DNA from: Cellulophaga algicola DSM 14237
GTDB taxonomy: Bacteria > Bacteroidota > Bacteroidia > Flavobacteriales > Flavobacteriaceae
Length of the DNA: 64,000 bases
Reading direction: 5' to 3'
NCBI RefSeq assembly: GCF_000186265.1
Contig: NC_014934.1
Coordinates: 2,852,001 to 2,916,000, forward strand
The translations under genes were made by a program, and so were the position numbers. Shown piece by piece: positions 14,692 to 56,286 of the stretch (within the stretch, counting starts at the first letter, position 1; each line of letters begins with the position of its first letter). The notes under the pieces are model-generated. The model was given only the letters and a program-made list of their open reading frames with translations. It searched no databases and was not told the origin of the DNA.

Positions 14692-16515
14692 TTATATTTT
14701 TTTGATGTAAACGTAATAGGCAATATTTGATTGGTTTTCAGCATCAACAAAATTTGCAAAAAATTTAGTTTTTCCAGCTTTTAAGTCCACCGAGAAATCT
14801 GCTGAACTTGCATCTTTTTCAACTTCAGTTTCTACTTTTAATTGATTTTCAAATTCAATAAAAGCTTTGGTATACTGCATATTTTTTCCTTCAGGAATAG
14901 CTTTTTCTAAACCAGGAATTTCAGTGGTTGTTATTTTTGATGTGCTACTATTAATGCCTAAGTTGGCTTCTATAGGATACCTTCTAAGTGCTACTTCATA
15001 TGTGCCTTCTTCAAGAATATCAACACTCCAATACCCACTGCCAATTTTACCTTCTCTAATTTGAATTTGGTTCCAAGGTTGCATTGTTTCTTTACCATGA
15101 GTGTCATGAGCAGTAAGCGTAATAGGGTTTTCATTTTTTGATCCTATTTTAAAATAAATTTCTTCATTGAAATCTTTAGAAACTTGAGACCACCATTGCT
15201 CATAAAATGCTTTCATTTCATTAACTTTCTCGGGGTTTTCAGGAGCAATATTGGTAGCCTGACCTATATCTTCGGAAATATCATAAAGTTCTTTCCCATT
15301 AATTAAGCGCCAATTAGCTTGCATCACCGCAGAATTTTTCCATTTTCTCGGGTTTTGTACGCGTTGAGAATCGGTCACTAGCATTCTAGTGTTTAAGGTA
15401 TCTTTTCCTCTTAAAAGCGGAACAATACTCTGGCCGTCCAGTGCCAAATGATCTTTTGGTAAAGCTATACCACAAAGGTCTGCAAGAGTGGGCAGAATGT
15501 CAATTTGAGCAGCAAGGGTATTTATATCTTTTGGTGTATTAATTTTTCCGTCTTTCCAGTGTATAAAGAAAGGAACCCTATGTCCGCCTTCATACTCACT
15601 CCCTTTAGTACCGCGCATTTCAGCATTAAACCCCGTAATTTTTCCTTTTTTATTGTAATATCCTGCCGAGGTACCGTTGTCTGTCATAAAAATTAAAATG
15701 GTATTATCAGCGATGTCTAACGCTTTTAATTTGCGCCTTAGGGTTCCAAAATTGTCATCAATATTGGTAATCATCCCATAAAAACGTTTTTGCGTATCTG
15801 CTAAAACAGCATCGTCTAAATCTTTATACAAGTCATAATATTTAGTAGGTACATTATAAGGGCCGTGTGGAGCATTGGGAGCTAGATAGCAGAAAAATGG
15901 CTCATCCTTATTGGTTTCAATAAATTTAATGGCTTCGTCAAAAAAGATATCAGTACAATATCCTTCGTATTTTTCAGGTTTTCCATTATGAAAATAGGTG
16001 TCATTAAAATAGGTGTTATCCCAATAATCTGGAGTTTGTTGTACGCCACCACCTCCATGCATTACCGTTTCTTGAAAACCACGATCTTCTGGTCTAAAGG
16101 GGTAATTATCTCCCAAATGCCATTTTCCAAATCCACCAGTTTTATAGCCAGCTTCAGCAAACATATTGGCCAAAGTTTTCTCATTTTCACGTAATAAAGA
16201 CCACCCACCAACGGTATGCCAAACCCCAGTGCTATTGGCATATCTACCCGTCATTAACCCAGCACGTGTAGGTGCACAAGTAGGGCCTACATGAAAATTG
16301 GTTAAATGCGAACTCTCTGTATAAAAAGAATCTATGTTTGGAGTTTTAATGATGTTGTTGCCATGAACTCCTAAATCTCCATAACCTTGATCATCTGTAA
16401 TTACAATAATTACATTAGGTTTTGAACTCTTGTCCGTGACAACAAGTTCTTTCTTTTTTGATTGGCAACCTATTAGAGTTATAATACTAAATAGTGCTAA
16501 ATATTTCATTTTCAT
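14692..16515 (-). CDS. Type S1 sulfatase with C-terminal beta domain, lipoprotein
   Basis: A 607-aa sulfatase. The N-terminus ends in a lipobox (TLIGC, Cys17), so it is probably membrane-anchored. VIIVITDDQGYGD marks the N-terminal metal site, CAPTR is the formylglycine motif with Cys80, GKWHLGDNYPF follows, and FMTDNGTS with KGSEYEGGHRVPFFIHW closes the active site. Residues about 470-607 form an extra beta-rich region beyond the usual sulfatase length. It is the last gene of the run from the GH2 at 24044, 10 bp after the GH86-like enzyme, so the two are probably co-expressed and act on the same polymer. Confidence 0.9.
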   Translation of the reverse strand: MKMKYLALFSIITLIGCQSKKKELVVTDKSSKPNVIIVITDDQGYGDLGVHGNNIIKTPNIDSFYTESSHLTNFHVGPTCAPTRAGLMTGRYANSTGVWHTVGGWSLLRENEKTLANMFAEAGYKTGGFGKWHLGDNYPFRPEDRGFQETVMHGGGGVQQTPDYWDNTYFNDTYFHNGKPEKYEGYCTDIFFDEAIKFIETNKDEPFFCYLAPNAPHGPYNVPTKYYDLYKDLDDAVLADTQKRFYGMITNIDDNFGTLRRKLKALDIADNTILIFMTDNGTSAGYYNKKGKITGFNAEMRGTKGSEYEGGHRVPFFIHWKDGKINTPKDINTLAAQIDILPTLADLCGIALPKDHLALDGQSIVPLLRGKDTLNTRMLVTDSQRVQNPRKWKNSAVMQANWRLINGKELYDISEDIGQATNIAPENPEKVNEMKAFYEQWWSQVSKDFNEEIYFKIGSKNENPITLTAHDTHGKETMQPWNQIQIREGKIGSGYWSVDILEEGTYEVALRRYPIEANLGINSSTSKITTTEIPGLEKAIPEGKNMQYTKAFIEFENQLKVETEVEKDASSADFSVDLKAGKTKFFANFVDAENQSNIAYYVYIKKI

Positions 16516-18347: not shown

Positions 18348-19298
18348 CTAAAATTTTACAAATTTATAATAATCGTTAGTGCTTGTTATTGCAAAATAGG
18401 CTCCCTTTGATAGCGTACTTATGGTGATGTGTTTACTGTTCAGCTCTTCAAGAATAATTTTACCATTTCTGTCAATAATTTTAATAAAATCAAAAGCGGA
18501 AGAACCAGGAAGTGTTAAAATATTGGATGATTTGTTTACAGAAATTTGAATGCTTTTATTATTAATTTCGGCCATAGTAATTTGTGCAGTGGGCTTAAGG
18601 AACTGTACTCCAGATATTTCTTTGGTGATCGTGTTTTTAGCAGTAAAATCTTCCGGCAGCCCAAAAGATAACACTAACCTATAATCTTTACCTACCAGAG
18701 GTTCCTCATAGTTAATAGCTATTTTTTTAGAGCCACTGCCGGCACCAATAGCTATTCTTTTGGAGGATGCTAACCAATTATTTTTTTGCCACAATGCTAT
18801 TTGAACTTGCATGGGTTTGCTAAAAGAATAGTCCACATCAAATTGGTATTTCGCTGTATTTTCAATAATGGTGTTTAGTAAAGGAGAGAATGAAGCATTC
18901 TCAGAAAAGGAAACTGGTTTTTTGATGAATTCAATATTATTAATAATTTGACCAACTCTAGTCGTTTCCCAATTTCCATTTACTGCTCTTAGGCTAAGTA
19001 CTAATTTATATCCTTTTCCCGGTGATGGTTTTTGTGCTGAGGTAATCGTTAATTTTTGAATGCCTTGTCCTTTTTTTATCTTAATTTTTGTAGTGGCATA
19101 ATATTTTGAAGGCCCTCCACTAATGTCTATAGATAAATCTCCATCTGCTAAAGCAATATAACCTATGGTAAAATCATAGGAATCGCTTATCAGAATTTTT
19201 ACGGGTTGTGGTTTTACAAAAAGTACTTTTTCAGTTAGCTCTTGTGCATTTATTTGTAGGCAAAAAAGAAGTATTATTAGGGTAATTAGAACTCTCAT
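18348..19298 (-). CDS. Unrecognised secreted protein: two similar beta domains and T9SS-like tail
   Basis: A 316-aa protein I do not recognise. It has a signal peptide (about residues 1-18, ending INAQ) and then two beta-rich units of about 100 residues that look alike: each has a GK(G/D)Y(K/R)LVLS strand (residues about 95 and 203) and ends in I(E/Q)FIKKP or VQFLKP. The final 70 residues resemble a type IX secretion tail (SAFDFIKIIDRNGKIILEE, then ISTLSKGAYFAI and a basic KFVKF end). It lies between a sulfatase (7 bp) and the GH86-like gene (4 bp). Its place suggests a surface or secreted galactan-binding protein, but that is inference only. Confidence 0.6.
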   Translation of the reverse strand: MRVLITLIILLFCLQINAQELTEKVLFVKPQPVKILISDSYDFTIGYIALADGDLSIDISGGPSKYYATTKIKIKKGQGIQKLTITSAQKPSPGKGYKLVLSLRAVNGNWETTRVGQIINNIEFIKKPVSFSENASFSPLLNTIIENTAKYQFDVDYSFSKPMQVQIALWQKNNWLASSKRIAIGAGSGSKKIAINYEEPLVGKDYRLVLSFGLPEDFTAKNTITKEISGVQFLKPTAQITMAEINNKSIQISVNKSSNILTLPGSSAFDFIKIIDRNGKIILEELNSKHITISTLSKGAYFAITSTNDYYKFVKF

Positions 19299-36043: not shown

Positions 36044-37354
36044 ATGCAAAAAGAACAAAGCAGCAAGAAAACGAATAAGAGATATGGTATTTTAGCCATG
36101 GTCTTTTTAACGGTAGTTATAAATTATTTAGATAGAAGTAACATTTCTGTTGCAGCTTTTGCCTTAAGTGAAGACTTAGATTTATCATCTGTTCAAATGG
36201 GATTTATTTTCTCTGCTTTCGCATGGACGTATGCTATTTTACAAATCCCTGGAGGATTTATGGCAGATAAAATAAAGACTAGAGTCTTGTATTCTGTGAT
36301 TATGGCATTATGGTCTATAGCTACTTTGGTTCAGGGAATGGCTAATTCGTTTGGTAGTTTATTGGGGTTAAGGGCTACCATCGGTATTTTTGAGGCACCT
36401 TCATACCCTACCAATAATGTTATTGTTACGCGTTGGTTTCCTGAAAAAGAGCGCGCATCTGCCATCGCAATTTATACGTCAGGTCAATTTTTAGGGCTTG
36501 CGTTTTTAACACCAGTTTTGACGGCTATTCAGAGTTATCTAGGTTGGCGAGGATTGTTTTATGTTTCAGGAGCTATAGGTTTAGTTTGGGCTGTGCTTTG
36601 GTATGTTCTATACAGAGATCCTAAAGAACATTCAACCATGAATCAAGAAGAAATAGACTATATTGCAGAAGGTGGTGGGTTGATAGACGGAGTGTCTGAT
36701 ACGGATAAAAAAGAGCAAGTAGAAAAATTTAGCTGGTCAGATTTAAGGGAAGTGTTTTCTTATCGAAAACTTTGGGGTTTATATATAGGACAATTTTGCT
36801 TGGGTACTATTATCATATTTTTTTTAACTTGGTTTCCAACGTATTTAGTGAAATATAGAGGGTTAGATTTTCTCGAGTCCGGTTTTTTAGCTTCAATTCC
36901 ATTTCTAGCAGCATTTTTTGGTGTGTTGTTATCAGGGTTTACTTCAGATTTTTTAATAAAAAGAGGCTATACTGTTGAGATAGCGCGCAAGCTACCTATC
37001 ATATGTGGAATGTTGCTTTCTACGGCAATTATAGGGGCAAACTATACAGATGATACATTTCTGGTGATTTTATTTTTATCTATTGCATTTTTTGGAAATG
37101 GTTTGGCGAGTATTGCTTGGGTATTTATTTCATTAATGGCTCCCAAAAAGCTTATAGGCCTTACGGGTGGTGCGTTTAATTTTATAGGTGGTTTATCAGG
37201 TATTGTTGTACCTGTTATTATTGGATACTTGGTTAAGGATGGGGATTTTAAGCCCGCCTTGTTTTTTATCGGAGCTATAGCTTTACTAGGTTTTATAAGT
37301 TACACTTTTATTGTAGGCAAAGTTGAGCGTATTGTTCCTAGATCAAAGAATTAA
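36044..37354 (+). CDS. MFS sugar-acid transporter (anion:cation symporter family)
   Basis: A 436-aa inner-membrane protein with about 12 membrane segments. VVINYLDRSNISVAAFAL at residues 24-41 is the typical start of the hexuronate/galactonate/phthalate group of the major facilitator superfamily. GGFMADKIKTR is the loop motif between helices 2 and 3, and FEAPSYPTNNVIVTRWFP is a further group hallmark. Relatives such as the galactonate or L-galactonate carriers import sugar acids with protons. It is the first gene of a three-gene run with a galactonate-dehydratase-like enzyme 12 bp downstream and a lactonase, which fits a substrate such as galactonate or an oxidised galactan product. Confidence 0.88.
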   Translation: MQKEQSSKKTNKRYGILAMVFLTVVINYLDRSNISVAAFALSEDLDLSSVQMGFIFSAFAWTYAILQIPGGFMADKIKTRVLYSVIMALWSIATLVQGMANSFGSLLGLRATIGIFEAPSYPTNNVIVTRWFPEKERASAIAIYTSGQFLGLAFLTPVLTAIQSYLGWRGLFYVSGAIGLVWAVLWYVLYRDPKEHSTMNQEEIDYIAEGGGLIDGVSDTDKKEQVEKFSWSDLREVFSYRKLWGLYIGQFCLGTIIIFFLTWFPTYLVKYRGLDFLESGFLASIPFLAAFFGVLLSGFTSDFLIKRGYTVEIARKLPIICGMLLSTAIIGANYTDDTFLVILFLSIAFFGNGLASIAWVFISLMAPKKLIGLTGGAFNFIGGLSGIVVPVIIGYLVKDGDFKPALFFIGAIALLGFISYTFIVGKVERIVPRSKN

Positions 37355-37366
37355 GAATTTACAGTT

Positions 37367-38527
37367 ATGAAAATAAAAGATATAAAAACCTATCCTATTA
37401 ATGTAGGATCCGGTAGCCAATTGGTAGTTAAGGTTGAAACAGATTCTGGAATATATGGATGGGGCGCTTCAGGATTATCAGGACGTGAACTTGCTGTTGT
37501 AGGTGCCATTAAACATTTCAAAGCTTTTTTAATTGGTAAGGATGCGAGGCAAATTGGAGCCCTATGGCAAGAAATGTATAGAGGTCAATATTTTGAAGGG
37601 GGGCGCGTACTGGCTGCAGCAATATCTGCAATAGATATTGCTTTGTATGATATTAAAGGTAAAGCCCTAGGGGTCCCTGTTTATGAATTATTAGGAGGAA
37701 AACAACGCGATTATGTAGACTGTTTTGCATCTGTACGTTTTACCACGAAAGAAGAGTTATTTGATTATTCACTTCTTTTGGTCAAAGAAGGATGGACAAT
37801 GCTTCGGTTGGCACCAGCAGAATTTGAATCACAAGAAGATAAAGGTCTCTTTGAATCCAGGAAATCAATAGCCCTATTATCAGAATGGCTCATCGATTTA
37901 AGAAAAGAGATTGGTTCTCAAATTACTTTAGGTATTGATTATCATACACGTTTAAATGCTGCAGAGACGTATTCATTTATCAGCAAGATGCCAGCGGGAA
38001 CAATAGATTTTATAGAAGAACCTATAAGAGATGAGAGCCCAGAGGCCTATGAAAGTCTTCGTAAGCTTGTAACGGTGCCTTTTACTATCGGTGAAGAATT
38101 TTCAAGCAAATGGCAATTTGTACCATTTATAGAGAAGAATATTACGCAATATGTTCGCCTTGATATTTGCAATGTGGGCGGTATTACAGAAGCTATGAAA
38201 GTGGCAGCAATGGCAGAAGCTCATTATATTGATCTAATGCCACATAATCCGTTAGGGCCTATTTGTACGGCGGCATCAATTCATTTGGCTGCAGCTTGCC
38301 CTAACTTTAGTTGGTTAGAAGAGGTGAATACGCCAGCGCAATATATGGGCACAAATGCACCAGAGTATTACCCATTACAACATATTTTAGAAGGGCCTCG
38401 GTATAAAGTTTTAGATACGCCAGGTTTAGGTGTAGAATTCAATGAAGATTTAGCGGCACAATCAGAATTTATTCCTGTAGAAATTCCTAGACTACACCGT
38501 AGTGATGGTTCTTTTACAAATTGGTAA
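37367..38527 (+). CDS. Enolase-superfamily sugar-acid dehydratase (galactonate dehydratase-like)
   Basis: A 386-aa cytoplasmic enzyme of the mandelate racemase group. It has the capping domain (IYGWGASGLSGRE), then a barrel with the GIDYHTR strand, whose His in DxH matches galactonate dehydratase, the metal-ligand stretches FIEEPI and IGEEF, and PHNPLGPICTAASIHLAA, very like the PHCPLGPI segment of DgoD. The KxK base of mandelate racemase is absent (MLRLAP), as it also is in the DgoD branch. The likely reaction is dehydration of a galactonate to 2-keto-3-deoxy-galactonate; D- or L-galactonate cannot be decided. It is followed by an SMP-30 lactonase, which would supply the acid from a lactone. 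Confidence 0.82.
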   Translation: MKIKDIKTYPINVGSGSQLVVKVETDSGIYGWGASGLSGRELAVVGAIKHFKAFLIGKDARQIGALWQEMYRGQYFEGGRVLAAAISAIDIALYDIKGKALGVPVYELLGGKQRDYVDCFASVRFTTKEELFDYSLLLVKEGWTMLRLAPAEFESQEDKGLFESRKSIALLSEWLIDLRKEIGSQITLGIDYHTRLNAAETYSFISKMPAGTIDFIEEPIRDESPEAYESLRKLVTVPFTIGEEFSSKWQFVPFIEKNITQYVRLDICNVGGITEAMKVAAMAEAHYIDLMPHNPLGPICTAASIHLAAACPNFSWLEEVNTPAQYMGTNAPEYYPLQHILEGPRYKVLDTPGLGVEFNEDLAAQSEFIPVEIPRLHRSDGSFTNW

Positions 38528-38556
38528 TGTAATAAGTGTAACTAAAAATAGATCAA

Positions 38557-39585
38557 GTGTTTGCTAAAAGTATAAGTGTCTTTATTGTTGTCCTCATCCT
38601 ATCTAGTTGTAAGAATGGAAAAGAAGCTATAGTTGTTTCTAATAGTGAGTTAACCGCTAAATTCTCTATTGAAATTTTGACCGATGAAGGTAATTTGGTT
38701 ATAGATAAACACAGTAGTATCGAAATTCTGGCAGATGGCTTTACGTGGACGGAGGGGCCACTGTATATAGAAAATGGAGACTATCTTTTGTTTTCTGATA
38801 TACCAAATAGTAAAGTTTTTAAGATTGATGCTCAAGGAAAAACGAGTGTCTATTTGCACCCGTCAGGAAATGATGTAAAGAATTATACAGGAAAGGAAGC
38901 TGGCTCTAATGCTTTGATGTATTATAAAGATCAATTAATTCTGATGCAACAGGGGGAGAGGCGAATTGCTAAAATGAAGGCACCGATAGATTCTCCTAAA
39001 GAAAGCTATGAGATGATTGTAGATACATATGAAGGCAAAAGATTAAATAGTCCAAATGATGGGGTGTTTGATGCGCTTGGCAACCTTTATTTTACGGATC
39101 CTCCTTATGGTTTGCCTAATGGAATAAATGATGTGACAAAAGAGCTAGATTTTCAGGGGGTATATTGTTTGCTGACTTCTGGAGAACTAATACTGCTTGA
39201 CAAAGAAATAAAATACCCTAATGGCATAACGCTATCACCAGATGAGAAAACACTTTATGTAGCTGCCTCTGACCCTGAAAAAGCAGCTTGGTATTCCTAT
39301 AAAATTGCGCAACCAGGAACAGTGAGTGATAAAAGATTGTTTTATGATGTTACGGCTCTAGATCGTGATAAAAAACACAAGGGATTGCCAGACGGGATGA
39401 AAACAAATCATGACGGATATCTATTTGCTACTGGTCCGGATGGTGTATGGGTTTTTAATCCTAATGGAGTTGCAATTGCTAGAATTCATACGGGAGTACT
39501 GACGGCAAATTGCGCTTTATCTACAGATGAATCTCAATTATTCTTAACAGCCGATGATTATATCTTAAAGGTAACTTTAAAATAA
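38557..39585 (+). CDS. SMP-30/gluconolactonase-family lipoprotein
   Basis: A 342-aa six-bladed propeller lactonase. The frame opens with GTG at 38557, which gives an exact lipoprotein signal (LILSSC, Cys18); no better ATG lies upstream. SMP-30 hallmarks are EGPLYIENGDYLLFSDI, LNSPNDGVFDALGNLYFTDPPYG (metal-binding Asn-Asp), PNGITLSPDEKTLYVA and LPDGMKTNHDGYLFATGPDGV. These enzymes open aldonolactones using a divalent metal. The lipid anchor puts it in the periplasm, so it could open lactones before import by the MFS carrier two genes upstream. It lies 29 bp after the dehydratase stop. Confidence 0.87.
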   Translation: MFAKSISVFIVVLILSSCKNGKEAIVVSNSELTAKFSIEILTDEGNLVIDKHSSIEILADGFTWTEGPLYIENGDYLLFSDIPNSKVFKIDAQGKTSVYLHPSGNDVKNYTGKEAGSNALMYYKDQLILMQQGERRIAKMKAPIDSPKESYEMIVDTYEGKRLNSPNDGVFDALGNLYFTDPPYGLPNGINDVTKELDFQGVYCLLTSGELILLDKEIKYPNGITLSPDEKTLYVAASDPEKAAWYSYKIAQPGTVSDKRLFYDVTALDRDKKHKGLPDGMKTNHDGYLFATGPDGVWVFNPNGVAIARIHTGVLTANCALSTDESQLFLTADDYILKVTLK

Positions 39586-39829: not shown

Positions 39830-40840
39830 ATGAAATATATCGTTTGTGAAAAACCAGGAGAATTTCTTTTAAAAGAAAAAGAGGCACCTGTTAGAAAAGA
39901 GAATGAAGCCTTGCTTAAAATAAAAAAAGTAGGAATTTGTGGTACAGATTTACATGCTTATGGAGGCAATCAAGCTTTTTTTACATATCCTCGAATTTTA
40001 GGTCATGAATTGGCTTCAGAGGTAGTGGAGATTGGTGCCAATGAGCGTGGAATTAAAGCAGGAGATAAGGTGGTGGTAATGCCTTACATAAGCTGTGGAA
40101 AATGTATAGCTTGCCGCAATGGTAAAACAAATTGCTGTACAAATATAAGCGTGTTAGGGGTGCATAGTGACGGAGGGATGCAAGAGATGATTACAGTTCC
40201 TACCAATATTTTGTTACTAGCAAATAATTTATCTGATGATCAGATGGCTATAGTAGAACCTTTGGCTATTGGAGCACATGCCATACGCAGAGCGCAAATA
40301 ACTCCAGGAGAAACAGTGGCTGTAGTTGGTTGTGGACCAATAGGAATAGGAATCATGAAACTCGCACAGATTGCAGGAGCAAAAGTAATTGCCCTAGATA
40401 TGAATGAGCAGCGTTTGCAATATGCTAAAGATAAGATAGGTGTAGATTATGTGGTAAACGTTGCTAATGATCCTGTGGCAAAAATTACTGAAATTACAAA
40501 TGGAGATTTATGTACTGCAGTTTTTGATGCTTCGGGTCATAAAGGCGCTTTAGAAATGTGTCCTTCGTACATGTCTCACGGAGGTAGGTTTATTCTAGTG
40601 GGTTTATCTAAAGGAGAACTTACGTATACACATCCTGCCATACATGCAAAAGAAATGACCTTAATGTGTAGTAGAAATGCTACAACCGAAGATTTTGAGC
40701 ATGTTATTAATGTTTTAGATCAATTTCCAACGGCATCATTTATTACACATTCTGTTCCGTTTACAGCAATGATTGAAAATTTTGATAGTTGGTTAAAACC
40801 AGAAACAGGCGTAATTAAAGCCACTGTAAATTTTAGTTAA
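39830..40840 (+). CDS. Zinc-dependent alcohol dehydrogenase, probable L-galactonate 5-dehydrogenase
   Basis: A 336-aa cytoplasmic MDR enzyme. I use the ATG at 39830 (MKYIVCEKPGEF); the frame is open further up to a GTG at 39764, but that adds unrelated residues. The catalytic zinc site is GICGTDLHAYGG and LGHELASEV, and the structural zinc lobe is complete (CGKCIACRNGKTNCC). The Rossmann motif is VVGCGPIGIG. Relatives include sorbitol/idonate dehydrogenases and E. coli LgoD, which makes tagaturonate from L-galactonate. The next two genes, altronate dehydratase (4 bp away) and tagaturonate reductase, are exactly the enzymes needed after that step, so I infer the LgoD reaction. Confidence 0.82.
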   Translation: MKYIVCEKPGEFLLKEKEAPVRKENEALLKIKKVGICGTDLHAYGGNQAFFTYPRILGHELASEVVEIGANERGIKAGDKVVVMPYISCGKCIACRNGKTNCCTNISVLGVHSDGGMQEMITVPTNILLLANNLSDDQMAIVEPLAIGAHAIRRAQITPGETVAVVGCGPIGIGIMKLAQIAGAKVIALDMNEQRLQYAKDKIGVDYVVNVANDPVAKITEITNGDLCTAVFDASGHKGALEMCPSYMSHGGRFILVGLSKGELTYTHPAIHAKEMTLMCSRNATTEDFEHVINVLDQFPTASFITHSVPFTAMIENFDSWLKPETGVIKATVNFS

Positions 40841-40844
40841 ATAG

Positions 40845-42497
40845 ATGCAAAAAAGCTATGTTCAAATAGACTTGAAAGACAACATTATTGTTGCGATTAC
40901 GAACCTAGAAAAAGGGCTAGTAACTTCCGTTGCAGGAACAGAAGTCACTTTAAAAGAACCTATAAAGCAGAAACATAAATTTGCACTTTATGATTTTAGC
41001 GTAGGAGATGAGCTATTCATGTACGGCGTTTTAATAGGTAAAGCAACCAAAGAAATTCTTTCGGGTACCGCTATTACCGTTGATAATGTCAAACATGCAT
41101 CGGCAACATTTAGTGCTGCCAAAGAGCAGTTTGTTTGGCAAGCACCAGATGTTACTAAATTTAAGAATAGCACGTTTAAGGGGTACCATAGAAAAGATAC
41201 TAAAGTAGGTACCGCAAACTACTGGTTAGTAATACCGTTAACTTTTTGTGAAAATAGAAATATAGATGTTCTCGAGGCAGCGCTTTCTGAGAAACTAGGA
41301 TATCAAACTAAAAAAGATTTTGCCGTAGATACTGATGCCTTAATCCGCAATTACAAGGCCGGTGCTTCTAAAGAAAAGCTTTTAAATACTCCTATAATTG
41401 CTACCCATGAAGAAATGGCAAAAAAAAGGGTGTTCCCGAATGTCGACGGAATTAAGTTTTTAAAACATGACGGTGGTTGTGGAGGTATTAGACAAGATTC
41501 TGAAACGCTTTGCAAGCTATTAGCGGGGTATATTGCTAACCCGAATGTTGCGGGAGCTACAATTTTAAGTCTTGGATGCCAAAATGCCCAAATATCCATG
41601 TTGCATAATGCATTAAAATCGTTAAATATAGATGGTGATAAGCCTGTACATTATTTAGAACAACAAGGAAGTTTAAGTGAAAGACATTTTATAGAAGAAG
41701 CTGTAAAAGTTACTTTTTTAGGCTTGATAGAGGCCAATGAGATAGAACGAAAACCAGCACCATTAAGTAAGTTGGTGCTAGGATTAGAGTGTGGTGGTTC
41801 TGATGGTTTTTCAGGAATATCTGCAAATCCAGCGTTGGGGTATGCTTCAGATTTATTGGTAGCCTTAGGCGGTAGTCCTGTGTTAGCAGAGTTCCCAGAA
41901 TTAAACGGGGTAGAGCAAGAAATGATTAACCGCTGCGCGACAGAAAAAGACGCGAAAAAGTTTTATAACTTAATGCGTGCCTATTCGGCTGCCGCTGTGG
42001 CTGTTGGTTCTGGTTTTGAAAATAATCCATCACCAGGAAATATAAAAGATGGCTTGATAACAGATGCCATGAAATCTGCCGGTGCAGCTAAAAAAGGAGG
42101 AACTTCTCCTGTTGTTGCAGTTTTAGATTATACGGAACAGGTGACCAAACCCGGATTAAATTTACTGTGTACCCCAGGTAATGATGTAGAGTCTACAACA
42201 GGTCTAGTAGGGTCTGGATGCAATATTGTTGTCTTTACAACAGGTTTAGGGACACCTACAGGAAACCCCGTAGCTCCTGTTTTGAAAATGTCTAGTAATA
42301 CAAATTTATACGAACGTATGAATGATATTATTGATATCAACGCAGGTACTGTAATTAGCGGAGAAGATACCATAGCGACTATGGGTGAAAAAATATTAGA
42401 ACATATTATAAAAGTAGCAAGCGGTGAGTTTGCGTCAAAAGCCGTACTACATGGGAATAACGACTTTATTCCTTGGAAAAGAGGAGTCTCTTTATAA
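40845..42497 (+). CDS. uxaA: Altronate dehydratase
   Basis: A 550-aa enzyme with the two parts of UxaA fused: an N-terminal SAF domain (residues about 10-95, FALYDFSVGDELFMYG) and a C-terminal dehydratase domain. Family marks are the HDGGCGG segment, SLGCQNAQ, LECGGSDGFSGISANPALG, and STTGLVGSGCNIVVFTTGLGTPTGNPVAPVLKMSSN near the end. It removes water from D-altronate to give 2-keto-3-deoxy-D-gluconate in the cytoplasm and needs a metal. It lies between the L-galactonate dehydrogenase-like gene and tagaturonate reductase. No uronate isomerase (UxaC) is nearby, so galacturonate is not the obvious source of tagaturonate here. Confidence 0.93.
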   Translation: MQKSYVQIDLKDNIIVAITNLEKGLVTSVAGTEVTLKEPIKQKHKFALYDFSVGDELFMYGVLIGKATKEILSGTAITVDNVKHASATFSAAKEQFVWQAPDVTKFKNSTFKGYHRKDTKVGTANYWLVIPLTFCENRNIDVLEAALSEKLGYQTKKDFAVDTDALIRNYKAGASKEKLLNTPIIATHEEMAKKRVFPNVDGIKFLKHDGGCGGIRQDSETLCKLLAGYIANPNVAGATILSLGCQNAQISMLHNALKSLNIDGDKPVHYLEQQGSLSERHFIEEAVKVTFLGLIEANEIERKPAPLSKLVLGLECGGSDGFSGISANPALGYASDLLVALGGSPVLAEFPELNGVEQEMINRCATEKDAKKFYNLMRAYSAAAVAVGSGFENNPSPGNIKDGLITDAMKSAGAAKKGGTSPVVAVLDYTEQVTKPGLNLLCTPGNDVESTTGLVGSGCNIVVFTTGLGTPTGNPVAPVLKMSSNTNLYERMNDIIDINAGTVISGEDTIATMGEKILEHIIKVASGEFASKAVLHGNNDFIPWKRGVSL

Positions 42498-42531
42498 ATT
42501 ATTTTTCAGTTTAAAGAAAAGTAAACGCACG

Positions 42532-44010
42532 ATGATAGTAGAAAAAAAGGCAGTGAAAATGAAAATATTAGATAGAACTACAGCAAATAAACCAATTACT
42601 CACCCAGTGAAAGTACTACAATTTGGAGGAGGAAATTTTTTAAGAGCCTTTTGTGATTGGATGTTTGATGTTTTAAATAAAACTACTGATTTTAATGGAA
42701 GTGTTGTGGTGGTTAAACCCACAGAACGTGGTGATTATAAGGCGTTAAGAGCTCAGGATGGTTTGTTTCATGTTGCGCTAGATGGGGTCCGTAATGGAAC
42801 GTTAGTTTCAGAAGTAAGCTTAGTAGAATCTGTGAGTGATGTTATCCAACCTTATACAGAATGGGATAAATACCTACAATTAGCTGAGCAACCAGAAATG
42901 CGGTTTATTGTTTCTAATACCACAGAGGCAGGAATAAAATTTTCGGAGAATGATAAACAAACAGATTTTCCTCCGCATGAGTTTCCTGCAAAATTAACAC
43001 TATGGTTATACCACCGATTTAATTTTTTTAACGGCGCGGTAGATAAAGGCTGTATTTTATTGCCCTGTGAACTTATAGAAAACAATGGAGAGGCTTTGAA
43101 AAGTACAGTTCTCCAATATTCAAAACATTGGAATTTAGAAAAAGAGTTTGCGGCTTGGATAGAAAAACATAACTATTTCTGTAGTACTTTGGTAGATAGG
43201 ATCGTTTCAGGTTTTCCTGAGGATCGTAAAGAAGCTATTGAAAACCAACTAGGTTTTAAAGATGAATTACTGGTAGCTGGTGAAGATTATCATAGTTGGG
43301 TCATTAAAGCACCATCTATAGTAAAAGCAGAACTACCTTTTGCACAAACAAATCTAAACGTACAGTTTGTAGAAGATTTATCGGCATATAGAGAAATGAA
43401 GGTCCGTATTTTAAACGGAGCACATACTTCTTTGGTGCCTGTTGGCTATTTAGCAGGCTTACGCACGGTAAAAGAAAGTATGGACGATTCTGTAGTTTGT
43501 AATCATGTGATGAAAGTACTTTCTACCGAAATAAAACCTACACTTAGCAATTTTTCTACAGCAGAAATAGATGCATTTATAAATTCGGTCATAGATCGTT
43601 TTAAGAACCCAACATTAAAACATTTCCTAATTGCAATTTCGCTGAATAGTACCTCTAAATTTCAAGCACGTTTGCTACCTGCTTTTATAGAGTATACGCA
43701 ACTGAAGGGCGTTTTTCCAAAAAGAATAGCCTTTTCTTTAGCGTGTATGATACGCTTTTATAAAGGAGATTTTAAGGGCGATAAAATAGCAGTGAATGAT
43801 GATGTAAAGGTTCTAGACTTCTTTAGCCAAGAATGGGGAAAGGTGACCAAAGAGGAGCAAACTATAGATGATTTAGTGCAGAATGTACTTTCTAATAGTG
43901 CTATTGTGGGAACAGATCTGAGCCAGTATCCTGGTTTGGTAAAGTATATTTCAGAAGCCTTATTAGCAATAGATAAAATAGGAGTAAAAGCGTATTTAAA
44001 CACCTTGTAA
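42532..44010 (+). CDS. uxaB: Tagaturonate reductase
   Basis: About 492 aa, a mannitol dehydrogenase-family oxidoreductase. The frame is open back to 42424 inside uxaA, but ATG 42532 (or 42559) lies just before the conserved KVLQFGGGNFLRAFCDWMFD cofactor-binding start, so the overlap is probably not translated. Further signs are RFIVSNTTEAGIKF, LPCELIENNGEAL, STLVDRIVSGFP and the catalytic region KVRILNGAHTSLVPVGYLAG with its Lys and Asn. It reduces D-tagaturonate to D-altronate with NADH. It lies directly after altronate dehydratase and 9 bp before the lactonase. Confidence 0.92.
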   Translation: MIVEKKAVKMKILDRTTANKPITHPVKVLQFGGGNFLRAFCDWMFDVLNKTTDFNGSVVVVKPTERGDYKALRAQDGLFHVALDGVRNGTLVSEVSLVESVSDVIQPYTEWDKYLQLAEQPEMRFIVSNTTEAGIKFSENDKQTDFPPHEFPAKLTLWLYHRFNFFNGAVDKGCILLPCELIENNGEALKSTVLQYSKHWNLEKEFAAWIEKHNYFCSTLVDRIVSGFPEDRKEAIENQLGFKDELLVAGEDYHSWVIKAPSIVKAELPFAQTNLNVQFVEDLSAYREMKVRILNGAHTSLVPVGYLAGLRTVKESMDDSVVCNHVMKVLSTEIKPTLSNFSTAEIDAFINSVIDRFKNPTLKHFLIAISLNSTSKFQARLLPAFIEYTQLKGVFPKRIAFSLACMIRFYKGDFKGDKIAVNDDVKVLDFFSQEWGKVTKEEQTIDDLVQNVLSNSAIVGTDLSQYPGLVKYISEALLAIDKIGVKAYLNTL

Positions 44011-44019
44011 GAAAGCGAT

Positions 44020-44847
44020 ATGATTATAGATTCACATCAACATTTTTGGAAATACGAACCAAAAAAACATAGTTGGATAGACGATGACATGGCCGTAATC
44101 AGAAAAGATTTTATGCCAGCAAGTCTTAAGAAAACCTATTTTGAAAACGGTATAGATGGGTGCGTGGCAGTTGAAGCAAACCAAAGTACACTAGAGACCG
44201 ATTTTTTAATGGATTTGGCTTCTAAGAACGATTTTATAAAAGGAATTGTGGGTTGGGTAGACTTTAGAGCCGATGATATTGAAGAGGTATTAAAACATTA
44301 CCATCAGTTTCCTATTGTTAAAGGTTTTCGCCATGTAGTTCAAGGAGAGGCAGATCATAATTTTTTATTGAGACCCGATTTTTTAAACGGAATTTTAAAA
44401 TTAGAGCAGTATAATTTTACGTATGATATTCTTGTATTTCCTCATCAATTAGGAGCTGTTTTAGAATTTGTGAAAAAGTTTCCGAAAATCAATTTTGTTA
44501 TAGATCATATTGCAAAGCCCTATATCAAAGATGGTTTTTTTGAAGGTTGGGCAGTGCTTATGGAGGCTATCGGAAAAGAGCCTAATGTGTTTTGTAAACT
44601 CTCAGGGATGATTACCGAAGCAGATTATAACACTTGGAAACCAGAACAATTACAACCCTATATGCAATGGGTGTTAGATGCTTTTGGAGCTGATAAATTA
44701 CTGTTTGGTTCTGATTGGCCCGTATGTTTAGTGGCAGGAAATTATCAAAAGGTAAAAGAAATAGTGACCAATTTTATTGCGCAGTTGCCAGAGGAAGATC
44801 AGGTCAAAATTATGGGCTTGAATGCCATAAAGTTTTACAATTTATAA
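44020..44847 (+). CDS. Amidohydrolase-family sugar lactonase (L-fucono/L-galactono-lactonase type)
   Basis: A 275-aa TIM-barrel hydrolase of the COG3618 group. MIIDSHQHFWKYEPKKHSW at the start carries the HxH metal pair, VKGFRHVVQGE and FVIDHIAKP supply further ligands, and LFGSDWPVCLVAG holds the conserved Asp. Members of this group open L-fucono- and L-galactono-1,5-lactones or related lactones. It sits 10 bp before an L-fucose-dehydrogenase-like SDR, the same pair found in the oxidative L-fucose pathway. With LgoD-, UxaB- and UxaA-like enzymes upstream, L-galactono-1,5-lactone is the substrate I favour. Confidence 0.88.
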   Translation: MIIDSHQHFWKYEPKKHSWIDDDMAVIRKDFMPASLKKTYFENGIDGCVAVEANQSTLETDFLMDLASKNDFIKGIVGWVDFRADDIEEVLKHYHQFPIVKGFRHVVQGEADHNFLLRPDFLNGILKLEQYNFTYDILVFPHQLGAVLEFVKKFPKINFVIDHIAKPYIKDGFFEGWAVLMEAIGKEPNVFCKLSGMITEADYNTWKPEQLQPYMQWVLDAFGADKLLFGSDWPVCLVAGNYQKVKEIVTNFIAQLPEEDQVKIMGLNAIKFYNL

Positions 44848-44857
44848 AATATAGCAG

Positions 44858-45649
44858 ATGGATTTGAAGTTAAAAGATAAAATCATTGTAGTCACTGGTG
44901 CTGCAGGTATAAAAGGAAGCATAGGAGAAACTATAGTTCAACATTTGGCTGCAGAAGGTGCAATTCCGGTAATTGTTTGTCGTAATGATAGAGGGTTTGG
45001 ATACGAGAAAGAATTACAAGAAAAGGGGATTGATGCGTTGTTTGTAAAAACAGATTTATCGGATGCTGTTCAGATTGAAGCAGCAGTTAAAAAAATAGAA
45101 AATAAATACGGTAAAATCGATGCGCTAATTAATAATGTAGGCGTAAATGATGGTGCAGGTTTAGATGCTTCTATTGATGATTTTATGTACTCTTTAAAGC
45201 TAAATATGGTAAGTTATTTTGCAATGACTAAATACTGCCTTCCGATGTTGAAAAAAACAAAAGGAAATATTCTAAATATAGGTTCTAAAGTTGCGCTTAC
45301 GGGGCAAGGAGGAACATCTGGCTATGCCGCTTCTAAAGGAGGTGTTTTTGGTCTAACTCGTGAATGGGCTGTGGATTTAATAAAATTCGGAATTCGTTCT
45401 AATGCTATAGTTATTGCAGAAAGTTGGACACCTGCCTATGATGCTTGGATAAAAACCTTAGAAAACGGCGAAGAGAAATTGAATGCTATTGTAAAGAAAA
45501 TTCCTTTAGAAAATAGAATGACCATGCCTGCGGAAATCGCAGATCAATGTTTGTTTACCATCTCAGAGAAATCATCACATACTACTGGGCAATTTATTAC
45601 CGTAGATGGCGGATACGTGCATTTGGATAGATCACTACTCACAGAATAA
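44858..45649 (+). CDS. SDR dehydrogenase, L-fucose/L-galactose dehydrogenase type
   Basis: A 263-aa short-chain dehydrogenase. VVTGAAGIKGSIGE is the nucleotide-binding turn, NNVGVND the inner motif, and ISK-region residues are Ser in LNIGSKVAL with the catalytic pair in GYAASKGG. The C-terminal part (AESWTPAYDAWI, IPLENRMTMPAEIADQ, SHTTGQFITVDGGYVHLDRSL) closely follows bacterial L-fucose dehydrogenases, which also oxidise L-galactose and D-arabinose at C1. The expected product is the 1,5-lactone, the substrate of the lactonase 10 bp upstream. Because no fuconate dehydratase follows, L-galactose fits better than L-fucose. Confidence 0.85.
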   Translation: MDLKLKDKIIVVTGAAGIKGSIGETIVQHLAAEGAIPVIVCRNDRGFGYEKELQEKGIDALFVKTDLSDAVQIEAAVKKIENKYGKIDALINNVGVNDGAGLDASIDDFMYSLKLNMVSYFAMTKYCLPMLKKTKGNILNIGSKVALTGQGGTSGYAASKGGVFGLTREWAVDLIKFGIRSNAIVIAESWTPAYDAWIKTLENGEEKLNAIVKKIPLENRMTMPAEIADQCLFTISEKSSHTTGQFITVDGGYVHLDRSLLTE

Positions 45650-45744
45650 GATTAAAAGACATTTGTGTTATGATTTAAGACGCTTATCGCCTTGAAGCAC
45701 CCCTGTCATTTCTATTTTTGATTTTAAAATTAATCAACCCACAT

Positions 45745-47082
45745 ATGAGTCAGTCTAAAAATACGCCAGTTGTAAAACGAGAGTTATTATTTCCTTTTAT
45801 TATCATTACTTCTTTATTTGCATTATGGGGTATTGCCAATGATTTAACGAATCCTATGGTTTCTGCATTTAAAAAAGTGATGCCCGAACTATCTAATATG
45901 CAAGCTTCTTTGGTACAATTTGCATTTTATTTTGGATACTTTTTTATGGCCTTACCAGCAGCGTTATTTATCAGAAAATACAGTTATAAAGCCGGAATAA
46001 TTTTAGGTTTAACACTATATGCTATTGGCGCTTTCTTATTTTATCCGGCAGCAGCTCTTCAAGAATTTAATTATTTTTTAATATCGCTTTGGGTAATTAC
46101 CTGCGGTTTGGCATTTTTAGAAACCACTTCTAATCCCTTAATTTTATCCTTAGGAGATAAAGAAACAGCAACGCAACGTTTAAATTTAGCCCAGGCTTTT
46201 AATCCTATAGGTTCTTTAATAGGGATGATTGTTGCGCAACAGTTTGTTATTTCTGCATTGCGTTCCGATGATAAAAATGAAGCAGGAGAATTGGTGTACG
46301 ATACTCTATCTACCAGTGCAAAAGCTGTGGTGAGAGAAAATGACTTAAGTGTAATTAGTGTTCCTTATATTATTTTAGGTTTAGTGGTGTTGGTTATTAT
46401 GGGAGTCATTTTATGTACTAAAATACCTAAAACAGTAGATGCAGATAAAATGTCACTTTCAGCATCGTTTCAAAAATTGTTTGCCAATAAAAATTACATT
46501 TTTGGGGTAGTGGCACAAGCATTTTATGTAGGGGCTCAAATTATGTGTTGGACTTATATTTTTCAATATGTAGATAATATCAATGAAAGTTTACCAGAAG
46601 ATCAGGCATTAACGGCAACGTGGTATAATGTAGCCGCTATGATTATATTTTTATCAGGAAGATGGATAGGTACTGGATTAATGAAAACCATGAATCCGTC
46701 TAAGGTTCTAATGTTATTTGGACTTGGAGGGGTTGTTTTTTCTGCGGGAGCTATTTTATTGCCAGGAGAAATTGGGCTGTATTCTTTAGTAGGTATTTCA
46801 TTATTTATGTCCATTATGTTTCCAACCATTTATGGTATCGCCTTAAAGGATATGGCCGACGAAGCAAAGATTGGTTCCGCAGGTTTAGTTATGGCTATTG
46901 TAGGAGGTGCATTAATGCCCGTTTTACAAGGGGGTATATTAGATTGGGGCGGTCCTGGTTTTTCAGACGTTCAAGTTTTAGGTTTTATTCCTGAAGTTAA
47001 TTTTTCTTTTATTCTACCACTCATCTGTTTGGTTGTTGTGACCATCTACGGTTATGTAACTTTTAATGCATCAAAAAAATAG
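45745..47082 (+). CDS. fucP: L-fucose:proton symporter family permease
   Basis: A 445-aa inner-membrane MFS protein with about 12 helices. I take the ATG at 45745; the open frame reaches 45718 only with a TTG start. FucP traits: LFALWGIANDLTNPMVSAFKK, FAFYFGYFFMALPAA, AFLETTSNPLILSLGD with the motif seen in FucP for the sugar-binding Glu, and LNLAQAFNPIGSLIG. FucP carries L-fucose, L-galactose and D-arabinose with a proton. Placed after the L-galactose dehydrogenase-like gene and 5 bp before a mutarotase, it most likely brings L-galactose into the cell. A 95-bp gap before it could hold an internal promoter. Confidence 0.9.
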   Translation: MSQSKNTPVVKRELLFPFIIITSLFALWGIANDLTNPMVSAFKKVMPELSNMQASLVQFAFYFGYFFMALPAALFIRKYSYKAGIILGLTLYAIGAFLFYPAAALQEFNYFLISLWVITCGLAFLETTSNPLILSLGDKETATQRLNLAQAFNPIGSLIGMIVAQQFVISALRSDDKNEAGELVYDTLSTSAKAVVRENDLSVISVPYIILGLVVLVIMGVILCTKIPKTVDADKMSLSASFQKLFANKNYIFGVVAQAFYVGAQIMCWTYIFQYVDNINESLPEDQALTATWYNVAAMIIFLSGRWIGTGLMKTMNPSKVLMLFGLGGVVFSAGAILLPGEIGLYSLVGISLFMSIMFPTIYGIALKDMADEAKIGSAGLVMAIVGGALMPVLQGGILDWGGPGFSDVQVLGFIPEVNFSFILPLICLVVVTIYGYVTFNASKK

Positions 47083-47087
47083 AACTT

Positions 47088-47429
47088 ATGAGTGTAAAGA
47101 GATATTGTTATTCTTGCGATTTAAAAGATGATTCTAAATTAATAGCGGAATATAAAGCCTACCATGCGGAAGGAAAAGCTTGGCCTGAAATTACAAAAAG
47201 CATTAAGGACGCGGGTATTGTAGACATGCAAATCTATTTAACAGGCAATAGAATGTTTATGATTATGGAAGTGAATGAAACTTTTAATCCTGATAAAAAA
47301 GCGGCAATGGATGCTCAAAACCCAAAAGTACAAGAATGGGAAAATCTCATGTGGGATTATCAGCAAGAATTGCCATGGGCAGAAAAAGGCGAAAAATGGA
47401 TGGCTTTAGATAAGATATTCCAATTATAA
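47088..47429 (+). CDS. rhaM: L-rhamnose/L-fucose mutarotase family protein (RhaM-like)
   Basis: A 113-aa ferredoxin-like small protein of the COG3254 family. YCYSCDLKDDSKLIAEYKAYH at the start carries the conserved His-region, IVDMQIYLTGNRMFMIMEV is the core strand pair, and QEWENLMWDYQQELPWA with a final WMALDKIFQL is typical. It interconverts anomers of L-sugars so that the dehydrogenase sees its preferred form. It ends the seven-gene L-galactose operon and is followed within 35 bp by a terminator. Confidence 0.9.
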   Translation: MSVKRYCYSCDLKDDSKLIAEYKAYHAEGKAWPEITKSIKDAGIVDMQIYLTGNRMFMIMEVNETFNPDKKAAMDAQNPKVQEWENLMWDYQQELPWAEKGEKWMALDKIFQL

Positions 47430-47460
47430 GATATAGTTAGTTTTAGTGTTAGATAGTTTA

Positions 47461-47502
47461 GAGTTTAGGAGTTTTATATAAAACGACTAAACTCTTTTTT
47501 TT
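47461..47502 (+). terminator. Rho-independent terminator of the L-galactose operon
   Basis: A nearly continuous palindrome has outer arms GAGTTTAG (47461-47468) and CTAAACTC (47487-47494) and an inner AGTTTTATATAAAAC stem, followed by eight T (47495-47502). It cleanly ends the + strand operon after the mutarotase gene. Confidence 0.9.
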
Positions 47503-47599: not shown

Positions 47600-48090
47600 A
47601 TGGGCAATGCTTTTAGGGTTTTGATAATAAGTATACGATACTTCTACGGAGGAGATAGATTATTTAGAAGCCTTCAGGACTAAAAGCAATGATTATTTCT
47701 AAAAACGCTTTCATTTGAGTCATCATGTTTTTATTCGAGAACCGTTTTAAGTTTATCAACCAACGTGTCCTGAAACTTGGTATGCCGACAGTAATAATAC
47801 TATTTGGTCAGAAGATTATCATAAGTATGGAGTATTATGGGAGGACCCTTGGAATTTATTTTATTATGTAGATGGCGTTCAAGTACGTAAAACACCCATT
47901 GCAGAAATAGATCCTGAAAACTATACTAATGGAGCAGGTTTTACTAAGCCGATGCATATGATTATTAGCGCTGCAGCACAGTCTTGGAGAGAAACTCAAG
48001 GAATAAATTTTTTAACAGACCCTACGGTGACTAATGAAGAAAATACAATTATGCGTGTAGATTGGATTCGGGTTTATAAACCGGAATAAT
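47600..48090 (+). pseudogene. Decayed GH16 beta-agarase/beta-porphyranase gene
   Basis: Reading the frame from 47631 gives YDTSTEEIDYLEAF, with the GH16 catalytic ExDxxE motif at 47652-47669, then after a TAA at 47700 LSHHVFIREPF, a second TAA at 47748, and VYQPTCPETWYAD. From there an intact run of about 110 codons leads to DWIRVYKPE and a stop at 48088-48090. The order matches the C-terminal half of marine GH16 agarases and porphyranases (SHHVFIR, YGVLWEDPWNLFYYVDG, MHMIISAAAQSW). The N-terminal half and signal peptide are missing or scrambled: two stops lie just before 47631. It was therefore a secreted endo-galactanase that is no longer made. The rest of the gap 47430-48155 holds two terminators and one motif copy. 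Confidence 0.85.
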
Positions 48091-55051: not shown

Positions 55052-56068
55052 TTATAATTGACAATCCATTAATACTTTTAAACCGTCAGGATTGTTATCT
55101 ATATTTTCAAAAACTTGTTGAATGTTTGTTAATGGCTGCACATCAGTAATCATTTGTTCAAATGGCAGTTCATTTGCAGTGATGAGTTCAATGGCTTTTT
55201 CATAATCTTCTTTTTCGTATACTCGAGCGCCTATTAAGCTTAGTTCTTTCCAGAAAAACTTAAAGAGATCTACTGGTTTTTTCTCTCCATGGATGGCCAC
55301 CATTAAAATTCTTCCTCTTATACCCGCTACTTCACACATGACATCTAAAGCAGGCTGCACGCCAGCTACTTCAAAAACCACATCTGCACGTCTGTTTTCT
55401 GTCTTGCTTTTTACGTATTCGACTAAATCTAATTCAAGAGGATTCACAGCATCAAACCCCAATTCTTTTGCTTTTGCAATACGTTTAGGGTTTACTTCAG
55501 ATATAATTACTTGTGCACCTACTTCTTTAGCGACCATGGCTACTAATAAGCCAATAGGACCGCCACCTAAAACTACGGCAGTTTCTCCTTTGACTAAACC
55601 ACTTCTGCGCACATCATGTGTGGCAACAGATAGGGGTTCTATTAAGGCTGCTAATTTTAAATCGGTCTCCGCTTTTAATTTATGAAGTACAAAAGCAGGA
55701 ACGTTCCAATACTGTTGCATTGATCCCGGGCTGTCTATTCCAATAAATTTTAATTCTTCACAGATGTGATTAAATCCTTTATCAGATGCTTTTACTTTTC
55801 TATCATCTAAGGGGCGTACAACTACTTTTTCTCCAATAGAAAAGCCAGTAACATCTGCACCTACGGCATCAATAGTTCCAGACATCTCATGTCCAATAGT
55901 CTGTGGCATAGCAACGCGCTTATCCATCATACCATGGTAAATGTGCACATCTGTGCCGCAAACGCCTGAATACGCTACTTTAATTCGAACTTCATCATTG
56001 CTAGGTTGTTCAATTTCTTTGTCAATAACTGTAAAGGTTTTATTGCCTTCGTATATGGTTGCTTTCAT
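55052..56068 (-). CDS. MDR dehydrogenase, probable 2-keto-3-deoxy-L-galactonate 5-dehydrogenase
   Basis: A 338-aa medium-chain dehydrogenase. I take the ATG at 56068 (MKATIYEGNKTF); the frame runs on to 56122, but that would place the start inside the operator. Catalytic zinc residues are in GVCGTDVHIYHG and IGHEMSGTI, and the Rossmann turn is VVLGGGPIGLLVA. The structural zinc lobe is lost: between GEKVVVRPLDD and FIGIDSPGSMQQYW only one Cys remains, where the paralogue at 39830 has four. A zinc dehydrogenase oxidises 2-keto-3-deoxy-L-galactonate at C5 in agarolytic bacteria, which fits its place before kduD (10 bp) and with the cycloisomerase. It is the first gene of the operon, 11 bp after the palindromic operator. 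Confidence 0.82.
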   Translation of the reverse strand: MKATIYEGNKTFTVIDKEIEQPSNDEVRIKVAYSGVCGTDVHIYHGMMDKRVAMPQTIGHEMSGTIDAVGADVTGFSIGEKVVVRPLDDRKVKASDKGFNHICEELKFIGIDSPGSMQQYWNVPAFVLHKLKAETDLKLAALIEPLSVATHDVRRSGLVKGETAVVLGGGPIGLLVAMVAKEVGAQVIISEVNPKRIAKAKELGFDAVNPLELDLVEYVKSKTENRRADVVFEVAGVQPALDVMCEVAGIRGRILMVAIHGEKKPVDLFKFFWKELSLIGARVYEKEDYEKAIELITANELPFEQMITDVQPLTNIQQVFENIDNNPDGLKVLMDCQL

Positions 56069-56078
56069 TAAATTTATT

Positions 56079-56119
56079 GTTTCAAATAATAAACTAGTTT
56101 CATATTTGAAACAAATATA
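56079..56119 (-). promoter_or_regulatory. 34-bp palindromic operator with overlapping promoter box (L-AHG operon)
   Basis: Arms 56079-56094 (GTTTCAAATAATAAAC) and 56097-56112 (GTTTCATATTTGAAAC) pair at 14 of 16 positions around a TA centre. The site matches the one at 9085-9118 over most of its length and carries the same TATATTTG on the - strand at 56119-56112. The predicted start of transcription falls inside the palindrome and the first ATG is 11 bp beyond it, so a bound protein should block the promoter. The IclR gene ends about 170 bp upstream on the same strand. Confidence 0.8.
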
Positions 56120-56286
56120 CAATTATTTATAAAACAACAAGCTTATAAAAATGCATAGATCGTAGCTAAATTGTTAAAATTTTGGACGATGCTGTTTAGC
56201 CTTTCAAAACAGTTTAAAGAAAAGACTGATTTAAAAAGAAGTGTTTTTTAAAATAAGAGCCAAAGGGTTTGGCTTATGGAGTTTGC

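Follow-up and report, generated by a model that had tools for sequence, protein, structure and literature searches.

A conserved seven-gene operon in Cellulophaga algicola that probably catabolises L-galactose at the end of porphyran breakdown

This work concerns a window of 64,000 nucleotides in the genome of Cellulophaga algicola DSM 14237 (base 2852001-2916000 of the single 4.89 Mb contig, NC_014934.1; positions below are counted from the first letter of the window), and within it a run of seven plus-strand genes. A first-pass annotation, made from the letters alone, had read this run as an oxidative route from L-galactose to 2-keto-3-deoxygluconate (KDG). The genes, whose strand and order agree with that annotation in the list of open reading frames (ORFs), and the terminator-like structure that follows them, are these:

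39830-40840, plus strand: Zn-dependent medium-chain dehydrogenase/reductase (MDR), putative L-galactonate 5-dehydrogenase giving D-tagaturonate; the mechanical ORF begins earlier, at GTG 39764
40845-42497, plus strand: UxaA-type D-altronate dehydratase, predicted to give KDG (PF20629, PF04295, SAF)
42532 or 42559 (start) to 44010, plus strand: UxaB-type D-tagaturonate reductase (NF002969)
44020-44847, plus strand: COG3618-type amidohydrolase (PF04909, Amidohydro_2), putative L-galactono-1,5-lactonase
44858-45649, plus strand: short-chain dehydrogenase/reductase (SDR; PF13561/PF00106, NF052481), putative L-galactose 1-dehydrogenase
45745-47082, plus strand: FucP-type permease of the major facilitator superfamily (TIGR00885), putative L-galactose:H+ symporter; the mechanical ORF runs from TTG 45718
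47088-47429, plus strand: RhaM-fold protein (PF05336), putative L-galactose mutarotase
47460-47502, plus strand: terminator-like hairpin with a T run (minimum free energy of the fold -15.3 kcal/mol, z -3.4)

The intergenic gaps of 4, 34 (or 61), 9, 10, 95 and 5 bp fall inside the range of 4-95 bp given earlier, and the single terminator then announced is present after the last gene, as a hairpin at 47460-47495 just 3' of the RhaM-like gene followed by 8 T up to 47502; the automatic terminator scan gave no entry for this A+T-rich hairpin. The seven genes would be co-transcribed. Their family names were borne out by Pfam and NCBIfam, the lactonase and the RhaM-like protein staying below the NCBIfam cut-offs. 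The MDR protein combines ADH_N and ADH_zinc_N (Pfam), has RspB (4ILK) as its closest solved structure and keeps C37, H59 and E60, residues of Zn-ligand type, invariant over 81 alignment rows; none of the 25 NCBIfam matches listed, out of 28, reaches its cut-off. The dehydratase belongs to the GD_AH (altronate/galactarate dehydratase) family according to its three Pfam domains, while the NCBIfam search gave no model over cut-off, and C135, C212, C245, C316 and two further cysteines are invariant in 61 rows. The tagaturonate reductase (640 bits, cut-off 359) and FucP (514 bits, cut-off 280) clearly exceed the thresholds of NF002969 and TIGR00885, respectively. The lactonase, of the COG3618-type family and with a predicted substrate, reached 254.6 bits with the fuconolactonase model NF052480, under its cut-off of 400. 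The RhaM-like protein matched PF05336, scored only 21.6 bits with TIGR02625 (cut-off 99.6) and found its sole solved matches in L-fucose mutarotase (7BYW/7BYU, E ~2e-4). The substrates of the individual enzymes are predictions, drawn from families, gene order and context.

The operon sits in a porphyran/agar island. The minus strand before it encodes a SusD-type protein, six sulfatases, two glycoside hydrolases (GH) of family GH2, a GH86 porphyranase (PF18206, PF18040) and a hybrid two-component regulator. After it, the same strand carries RhaT-like, mutarotase-like, enolase-type, aldehyde-dehydrogenase, sulfatase, KduD-like SDR, MDR and IclR-type genes, together with GH117, a set that would deal with the 3,6-anhydro-L-galactose of agar and porphyran; an MDR gene of the window lies at 55052-56122. 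Porphyran is mainly built of L-galactose-6-sulfate units that alternate with D-galactose or anhydro-L-galactose (PMC10033563), in agreement with the earlier statement that L-galactose is a main sugar of this polysaccharide.

The arrangement is widely conserved. The best 80 of 246 relatives of the MDR protein, mostly from Flavobacteriaceae, provided 80 named loci, in which the presence of MDR is by construction and 13 of which are below full length because of contig ends; genes were named by best BLAST match to window or locus proteins, with thresholds. The order MDR-UxaA-UxaB-lactonase-SDR-FucP-RhaM, insertions allowed, recurs in 45 of the 80 loci and is beyond chance. Eight more loci keep this order with an aldo-keto reductase (AKR) in the SDR slot; the AKR also occurs in a ninth locus, L033, in which no UxaA was recognised. 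SDR was found in 61 loci, AKR in 9 and neither in 10, the two never together (0/80), and in all nine cases the AKR gene is immediately flanked by lactonase and FucP. In the 26 remaining loci the order is shorter or truncated: nine of Flavobacterium type, for instance, have MDR, lactonase and SDR, with or without FucP, and no UxaA or UxaB, and five have MDR and UxaB alone. Homologues of KDG kinase (26/80) and of 2-keto-3-deoxy-6-phosphogluconate (KDPG) aldolase (25/80) also occur in these loci, and in 21 of them both lie between MDR and UxaA, which completes the route to pyruvate and glyceraldehyde-3-phosphate. The hybrid regulator stands divergently within two genes in 13 loci, and a LacI-type regulator does so in 35.

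Two features of these loci point to the sugar. Ten solved structures matched the AKR of L040 (Wenyingzhuangia), five of which are L-galactose dehydrogenases (best E 6e-21). In 24 of the 80 loci, a GH29 gene whose product shares no less than 60% identity with its L040 counterpart is found on the same strand, at most two genes upstream. The structure search covered the L040 member of these 24, whose two best solved relatives, 7SNK and 7LJJ, are the exo-alpha-L-galactosidase BpGH29 from the porphyran locus of B. plebeius (PMC12316285). One of the GH29 proteins encoded in the C. algicola genome shares 68% identity with this L040 protein.

Uronate isomerase UxaC (PF02614) has no match in the complete 4.89 Mb genome, by a search that was positive in 7 of 14 control genomes; its absence, held earlier to argue against galacturonate, is thus genome-wide. 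Fucose isomerase FucI (PF02952) has no match in the genome either, and the single UxaA is the operon copy. Regarding the fate of KDG, a KDPG aldolase homologue at 3544 kb shares 80% identity with the copy inside the L040 operon and exceeds its NCBIfam cut-off, and a KDG kinase homologue (51%) at 4801 kb is under its NCBIfam cut-offs.

We consider, with a probability of about 0.85, that these genes form a single-transcript L-galactose catabolic operon which finishes porphyran breakdown. Porphyran as the sugar source, like each substrate below, is proposed from what was observed: the gene families and their order, their conservation and setting, and the genes that the genome lacks. An exo-alpha-L-galactosidase of family GH29 would free L-galactose from desulfated porphyran oligosaccharides, the FucP-type symporter would import it and the RhaM-fold protein would equilibrate its anomers. 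The SDR would then oxidise C1 to give L-galactono-1,5-lactone, which the COG3618 lactonase would open to L-galactonate. From a mechanistic point of view, L-galactonate and D-altronate are C5 epimers (PMC12632266), which would explain why two enzymes, an L-galactonate 5-dehydrogenase and a reductase of tagaturonate, are needed before altronate dehydratase can act. The MDR enzyme may accordingly carry out the C5 oxidation to D-tagaturonate, the UxaB-type reductase its reduction to D-altronate, with net inversion at C5, and the UxaA-type enzyme the dehydration to KDG, which the kinase and aldolase homologues at 4801 kb and 3544 kb would phosphorylate and then cleave. The route first proposed from L-galactose to KDG is in this way supported by a role for every gene, by the genomic absences, by the replacement of SDR by AKR, by GH29 and by the association with porphyranase.

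This association was evaluated in 397 Flavobacteriaceae genomes, apparently the same ones in the MDR, UxaA and GH86 searches, judging by equal numbers and handles; adjacency of MDR and UxaA meant at most 5 kb, in either order, read by eye. Adjacent orthologues of both were found in at least 44 genomes, and a GH86 porphyranase over cut-off in 21. As to the check suggested earlier in other porphyran degraders, the adjacent pair occurs in at least 16 of these 21 genomes, versus at least 28 of the 376 without GH86 (one-sided Fisher test on the UxaA matches listed, p 4e-13, or 3e-12 minus the own genome, with kinship uncorrected and no control enzyme). MDR orthologues anywhere in the genome followed the same trend (17/21 with GH86, 59/376 without). 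The association is a support and not a proof of specificity, because kinship is uncorrected and no other polysaccharide enzyme served as a control.

Besides these two limits, several observations weigh against the L-galactose reading. Among the UxaA matches listed, the adjacent pair is missing in 5 of the 21 porphyranase genomes, and at least 28 genomes bear the pair and no GH86, including that of a same-genus strain (G746), where no GH86 match was found; such genomes may come across L-galactose in glycans of other kinds or rely on porphyranases of family GH16. No GH29 gene lies inside the window: the five of the genome are at 2808-2835 kb, 17-43 kb before it. The SDR exceeds the cut-off of the L-fucose dehydrogenase model NF052481 (360.7 bits, cut-off 300), and Campylobacter FucX is weak on L-galactose (PMC6946681). 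L034, whose MDR is 85% identical to that of the window, has genes like those for fumarylacetoacetate hydrolase (FAH) and 2-keto-3-deoxyfuconate (KDF) dehydrogenase close by. FucP of E. coli carries L-galactose at much lower efficiency (PMC13406643). Lastly, the exchange between SDR and AKR is suggestive of L-galactose, not specific to it, because the AKR of L040 matches IolS almost as well as L-galactose dehydrogenase (74 vs 78 bits; E 1e-19 for IolS) and has no NCBIfam model at E 1e-30, and because AKRs active on D-arabinose, L-fucose and L-galactose are known (PMC6336799).

Among the alternatives, an L-fucose operon survives best, although we regard it as improbable. The SDR, the lactonase, FucP and the mutarotase would then serve L-fucose, and the UxaA-type dehydratase would act on L-fuconate. 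The nearest solved relatives of the SDR and the lactonase are 4GKB and 4DLF, which we take to be enzymes of the oxidative L-fucose pathway of Burkholderia multivorans. In favour of this reading, FucP, like the SDR, is over its cut-off, the genome has five GH29 genes, and a UxaA relative stands in a fucose-type region (L146, below). A UxaA-type dehydratase can accept acids sharing the C2-C4 configuration, and minor activity on L-fuconate and D-altronate has been reported for an enzyme of the UxaA/GarD family (PMC6336799). This reading, however, leaves MDR and UxaB without a role, since an L-fucose route would presumably need neither. Moreover, no fuconate dehydratase, KDF dehydrogenase or 2,4-diketo hydrolase was found within the operon (the search for KDF dehydrogenase did not cover the genome). 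The first-pass annotation had stressed the lack of a fuconate dehydratase, which stands for the operon and less strictly for the rest of the genome: of the eight matches to MR_MLE_C (enolase superfamily), the window accounts for two and L092, at 0.48 Mb, for two more, and a fuconate dehydratase may be present among the other four. As for the hydrolase, the genome has no close one, its best match to the FAH of L034 being 36% identical over 187 residues, while matches of 60-70% were found in 14 of 20 other regions read, and of 26% in one more.

These 20 regions came from a search for the lactonase across the phylum, where it is present in 56 of 395 genomes. In the 80 loci above, FAH and KDF-dehydrogenase-like genes occur in L034 alone (1/80), and we called fucose-type the loci with relatives of its FAH and SDR genes. 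Some of these clusters may serve L-rhamnose, given the NCBIfam results for the two L034 proteins: the best name of the FAH is 2,4-didehydro-3-deoxy-L-rhamnonate hydrolase (365, cut-off 500), and the SDR receives no KDF-dehydrogenase name from NCBIfam. Thirteen of the 20 regions are fucose-type (FAH and/or KDF-dehydrogenase relatives); eight of these have an MDR 44-54% identical to that of the window, two an enolase of ~440 aa and one, L146, a UxaA relative, while L134 and L141 have no relative of MDR, enolase or UxaA within the stretch read. The lactonase tree (91 rows, midpoint root) places the window protein in a group of 66 rows, 54 in a UxaA/UxaB context, 10 unlabelled and 2 fucose-type, and 12 of the 14 fucose-type rows in the other group of 25, which speaks against L-fucose. 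Another 8 rows with UxaA/UxaB as their context fall in that second group, alongside 4 without a label and 1 of mixed type, so that the agreement between lactonase lineage and gene context is good, not perfect. The SDR tree did not cleanly separate the contexts, the fucose-type L127, L130, L132, L137, L138 and L034 falling inside the group of the window SDR, and SDR phylogeny was dropped as a substrate marker.

Two of these regions deserve a separate description. In L146, a UxaA-type dehydratase (14187-15839, minus strand, 55% identical) accompanies lactonase, SDR, KDF-dehydrogenase-like and FAH genes, and no MDR, UxaB or enolase dehydratase was found in the stretch read; this protein is a candidate L-fuconate dehydratase. 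The idea of a UxaA-type dehydratase acting on L-fuconate is not new, since the title of a paper by Watanabe et al. (2019, Mol Microbiol 112:147) reportedly foresees it in print, as does PMC6336799. In L133 (5480-16491, plus strand), a single gene run combines a fucose-type set (KDF-dehydrogenase-like, FAH) with an L-galactose-type set (MDR, KDG kinase, KDPG aldolase, UxaB, UxaA), with shared SDR and lactonase.

A broader L-hexose operon, of the kind known in Luteolibacter LG18 for L-glucose and L-galactose, with L-galactose as one of several substrates, is very unlikely. LguA and LguD of that strain do work on both sugars and on their acids, but its use of L-glucose needs a C4-epimerase encoded outside the cluster (PMC12632266), and the porphyran context here would supply L-galactose, not L-glucose. 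A galacturonate (pectin) operon of Ashwell type, in which the dehydrogenase and the lactonase would be mere passengers, can claim UxaA and UxaB as galacturonate-branch enzymes and is hardly credible in a genome lacking UxaC and whose only UxaA is that of the operon. Both the galacturonate and the L-fucose readings were thus set aside, as they fit poorly with one UxaA, no UxaC, no FucI and no close fucose-type hydrolase.

The L-galactose pathway proposed here has known counterparts. In Phocaeicola (Bacteroides) vulgatus, Hobbs et al. reportedly described it in 2014, with BVU_0220, a COG3618-type lactonase, encoded between BVU_0219 and BVU_0222, and the later steps are said to be run by uronate pathway genes. 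BVU_0219 is the L-galactose dehydrogenase and BVU_0222 the L-galactonate dehydrogenase of this species; BVU_0219 groups, together with LguA of LG18, with the plant L-galactose dehydrogenase GALDH_ARATH (PMC12632266). By description, BVU_0219 is thus of the aldo-keto reductase type, in contrast to the SDR found here, and the C. algicola operon includes UxaB and UxaA in a genome without UxaC. The lguABCDEF cluster of LG18 similarly gathers the dehydrogenase, the altronate dehydratase, the tagaturonate reductase and the L-galactonate dehydrogenase, and kinetics and gene disruption showed L-galactose use through the same chemistry (PMC12632266). It differs, again by description, in its host (Verrucomicrobiota), in its GALDH-like LguA and in the KDPG aldolase and fructokinase which it contains, while its available description names no lactonase, FucP or mutarotase, all three being present here. 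LgoD, UxaB and UxaA of E. coli catalyse the same steps from L-galactonate to KDG (PMC12632266); that route starts at L-galactonate, whereas the operon described here would also provide for the uptake of the sugar, its oxidation at C1 and the opening of the lactone.

The first-pass annotation was aware of no description of this exact operon. This holds for Flavobacteriia, in that no publication on an L-galactose gene set of their marine members was found in the open-licence literature, outside which most subscription papers lie, and that the operon is not named in the accessible part of an expression study of Zobellia (PMC5613140). It does not hold for the pathway, known from P. vulgatus and the LG18 lgu cluster (PMC12632266). 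The pathway is thus known; what gives it a new form here is an SDR for the first oxidation, an operon complete in itself and its distribution among marine Flavobacteriia. We further lean towards a wider proposal, namely that the SDR would be a second, non-orthologous class of bacterial enzyme dedicated to L-galactose 1-oxidation, swappable with the plant-type AKR in one and the same slot, and that porphyran use in marine Flavobacteriia would usually end with this operon, which in many species adjoins a GH29 of exo-alpha-L-galactosidase type.

Other observations were made around these genes. The identity of UxaB to the window protein is bimodal across L001-L080 (~45-50% or 58-76%, with 95% in L001), whereas the values for MDR and UxaA remain high, which suggests that the UxaB gene may have been exchanged between lineages. 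MDR and UxaB without lactonase or SDR, as in L043, L049, L069, L073 and L076, possibly form a stand-alone unit for L-galactonate/altronate interconversion. Directly upstream of the operon, at 36044-39585 on the plus strand, lie a transporter of D-galactonate type (401.7 bits, cut-off 395), a D-galactonate-dehydratase-like enolase (267 bits, under the cut-off of 311) and an SMP-30 lactonase-type protein, which look like a D-galactonate/gluconate set and not like fuconate genes; Zobellia has a comparable trio, ZGAL_587-589, of gluconolactonase, gluconate transporter and galactonate dehydratase (PMC5613140). The whole trio recurs in only one of the 80 loci (L001, Cellulophaga baltica), L026 having its last two genes, downstream, and the transporter and the dehydratase each have a second copy (69% and 73%) at 0.48 Mb (L092). 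Between the operon and the RhaT-like gene, 47769-48086 (plus strand) holds a coding remnant of the C-terminal part of a GH16 protein (PF00722, E 1e-5), where no plus-strand ORF of at least 90 aa is listed. A 316-aa protein (18348-19298, minus strand) adjoins the GH86 porphyranase and has no match in Pfam (E 1e-5) or among solved structures; L041, L045 and L063 have relatives, 35-42% identical, next to their GH86 genes, and L061 has a piece of one.

The conserved operon thus offers a target for knockout and enzyme assay, a possible metagenome marker of L-galactose use and a source of L-galactose dehydrogenases. More generally, genes named L-fucose dehydrogenase or FucP in marine genomes may serve L-galactose.

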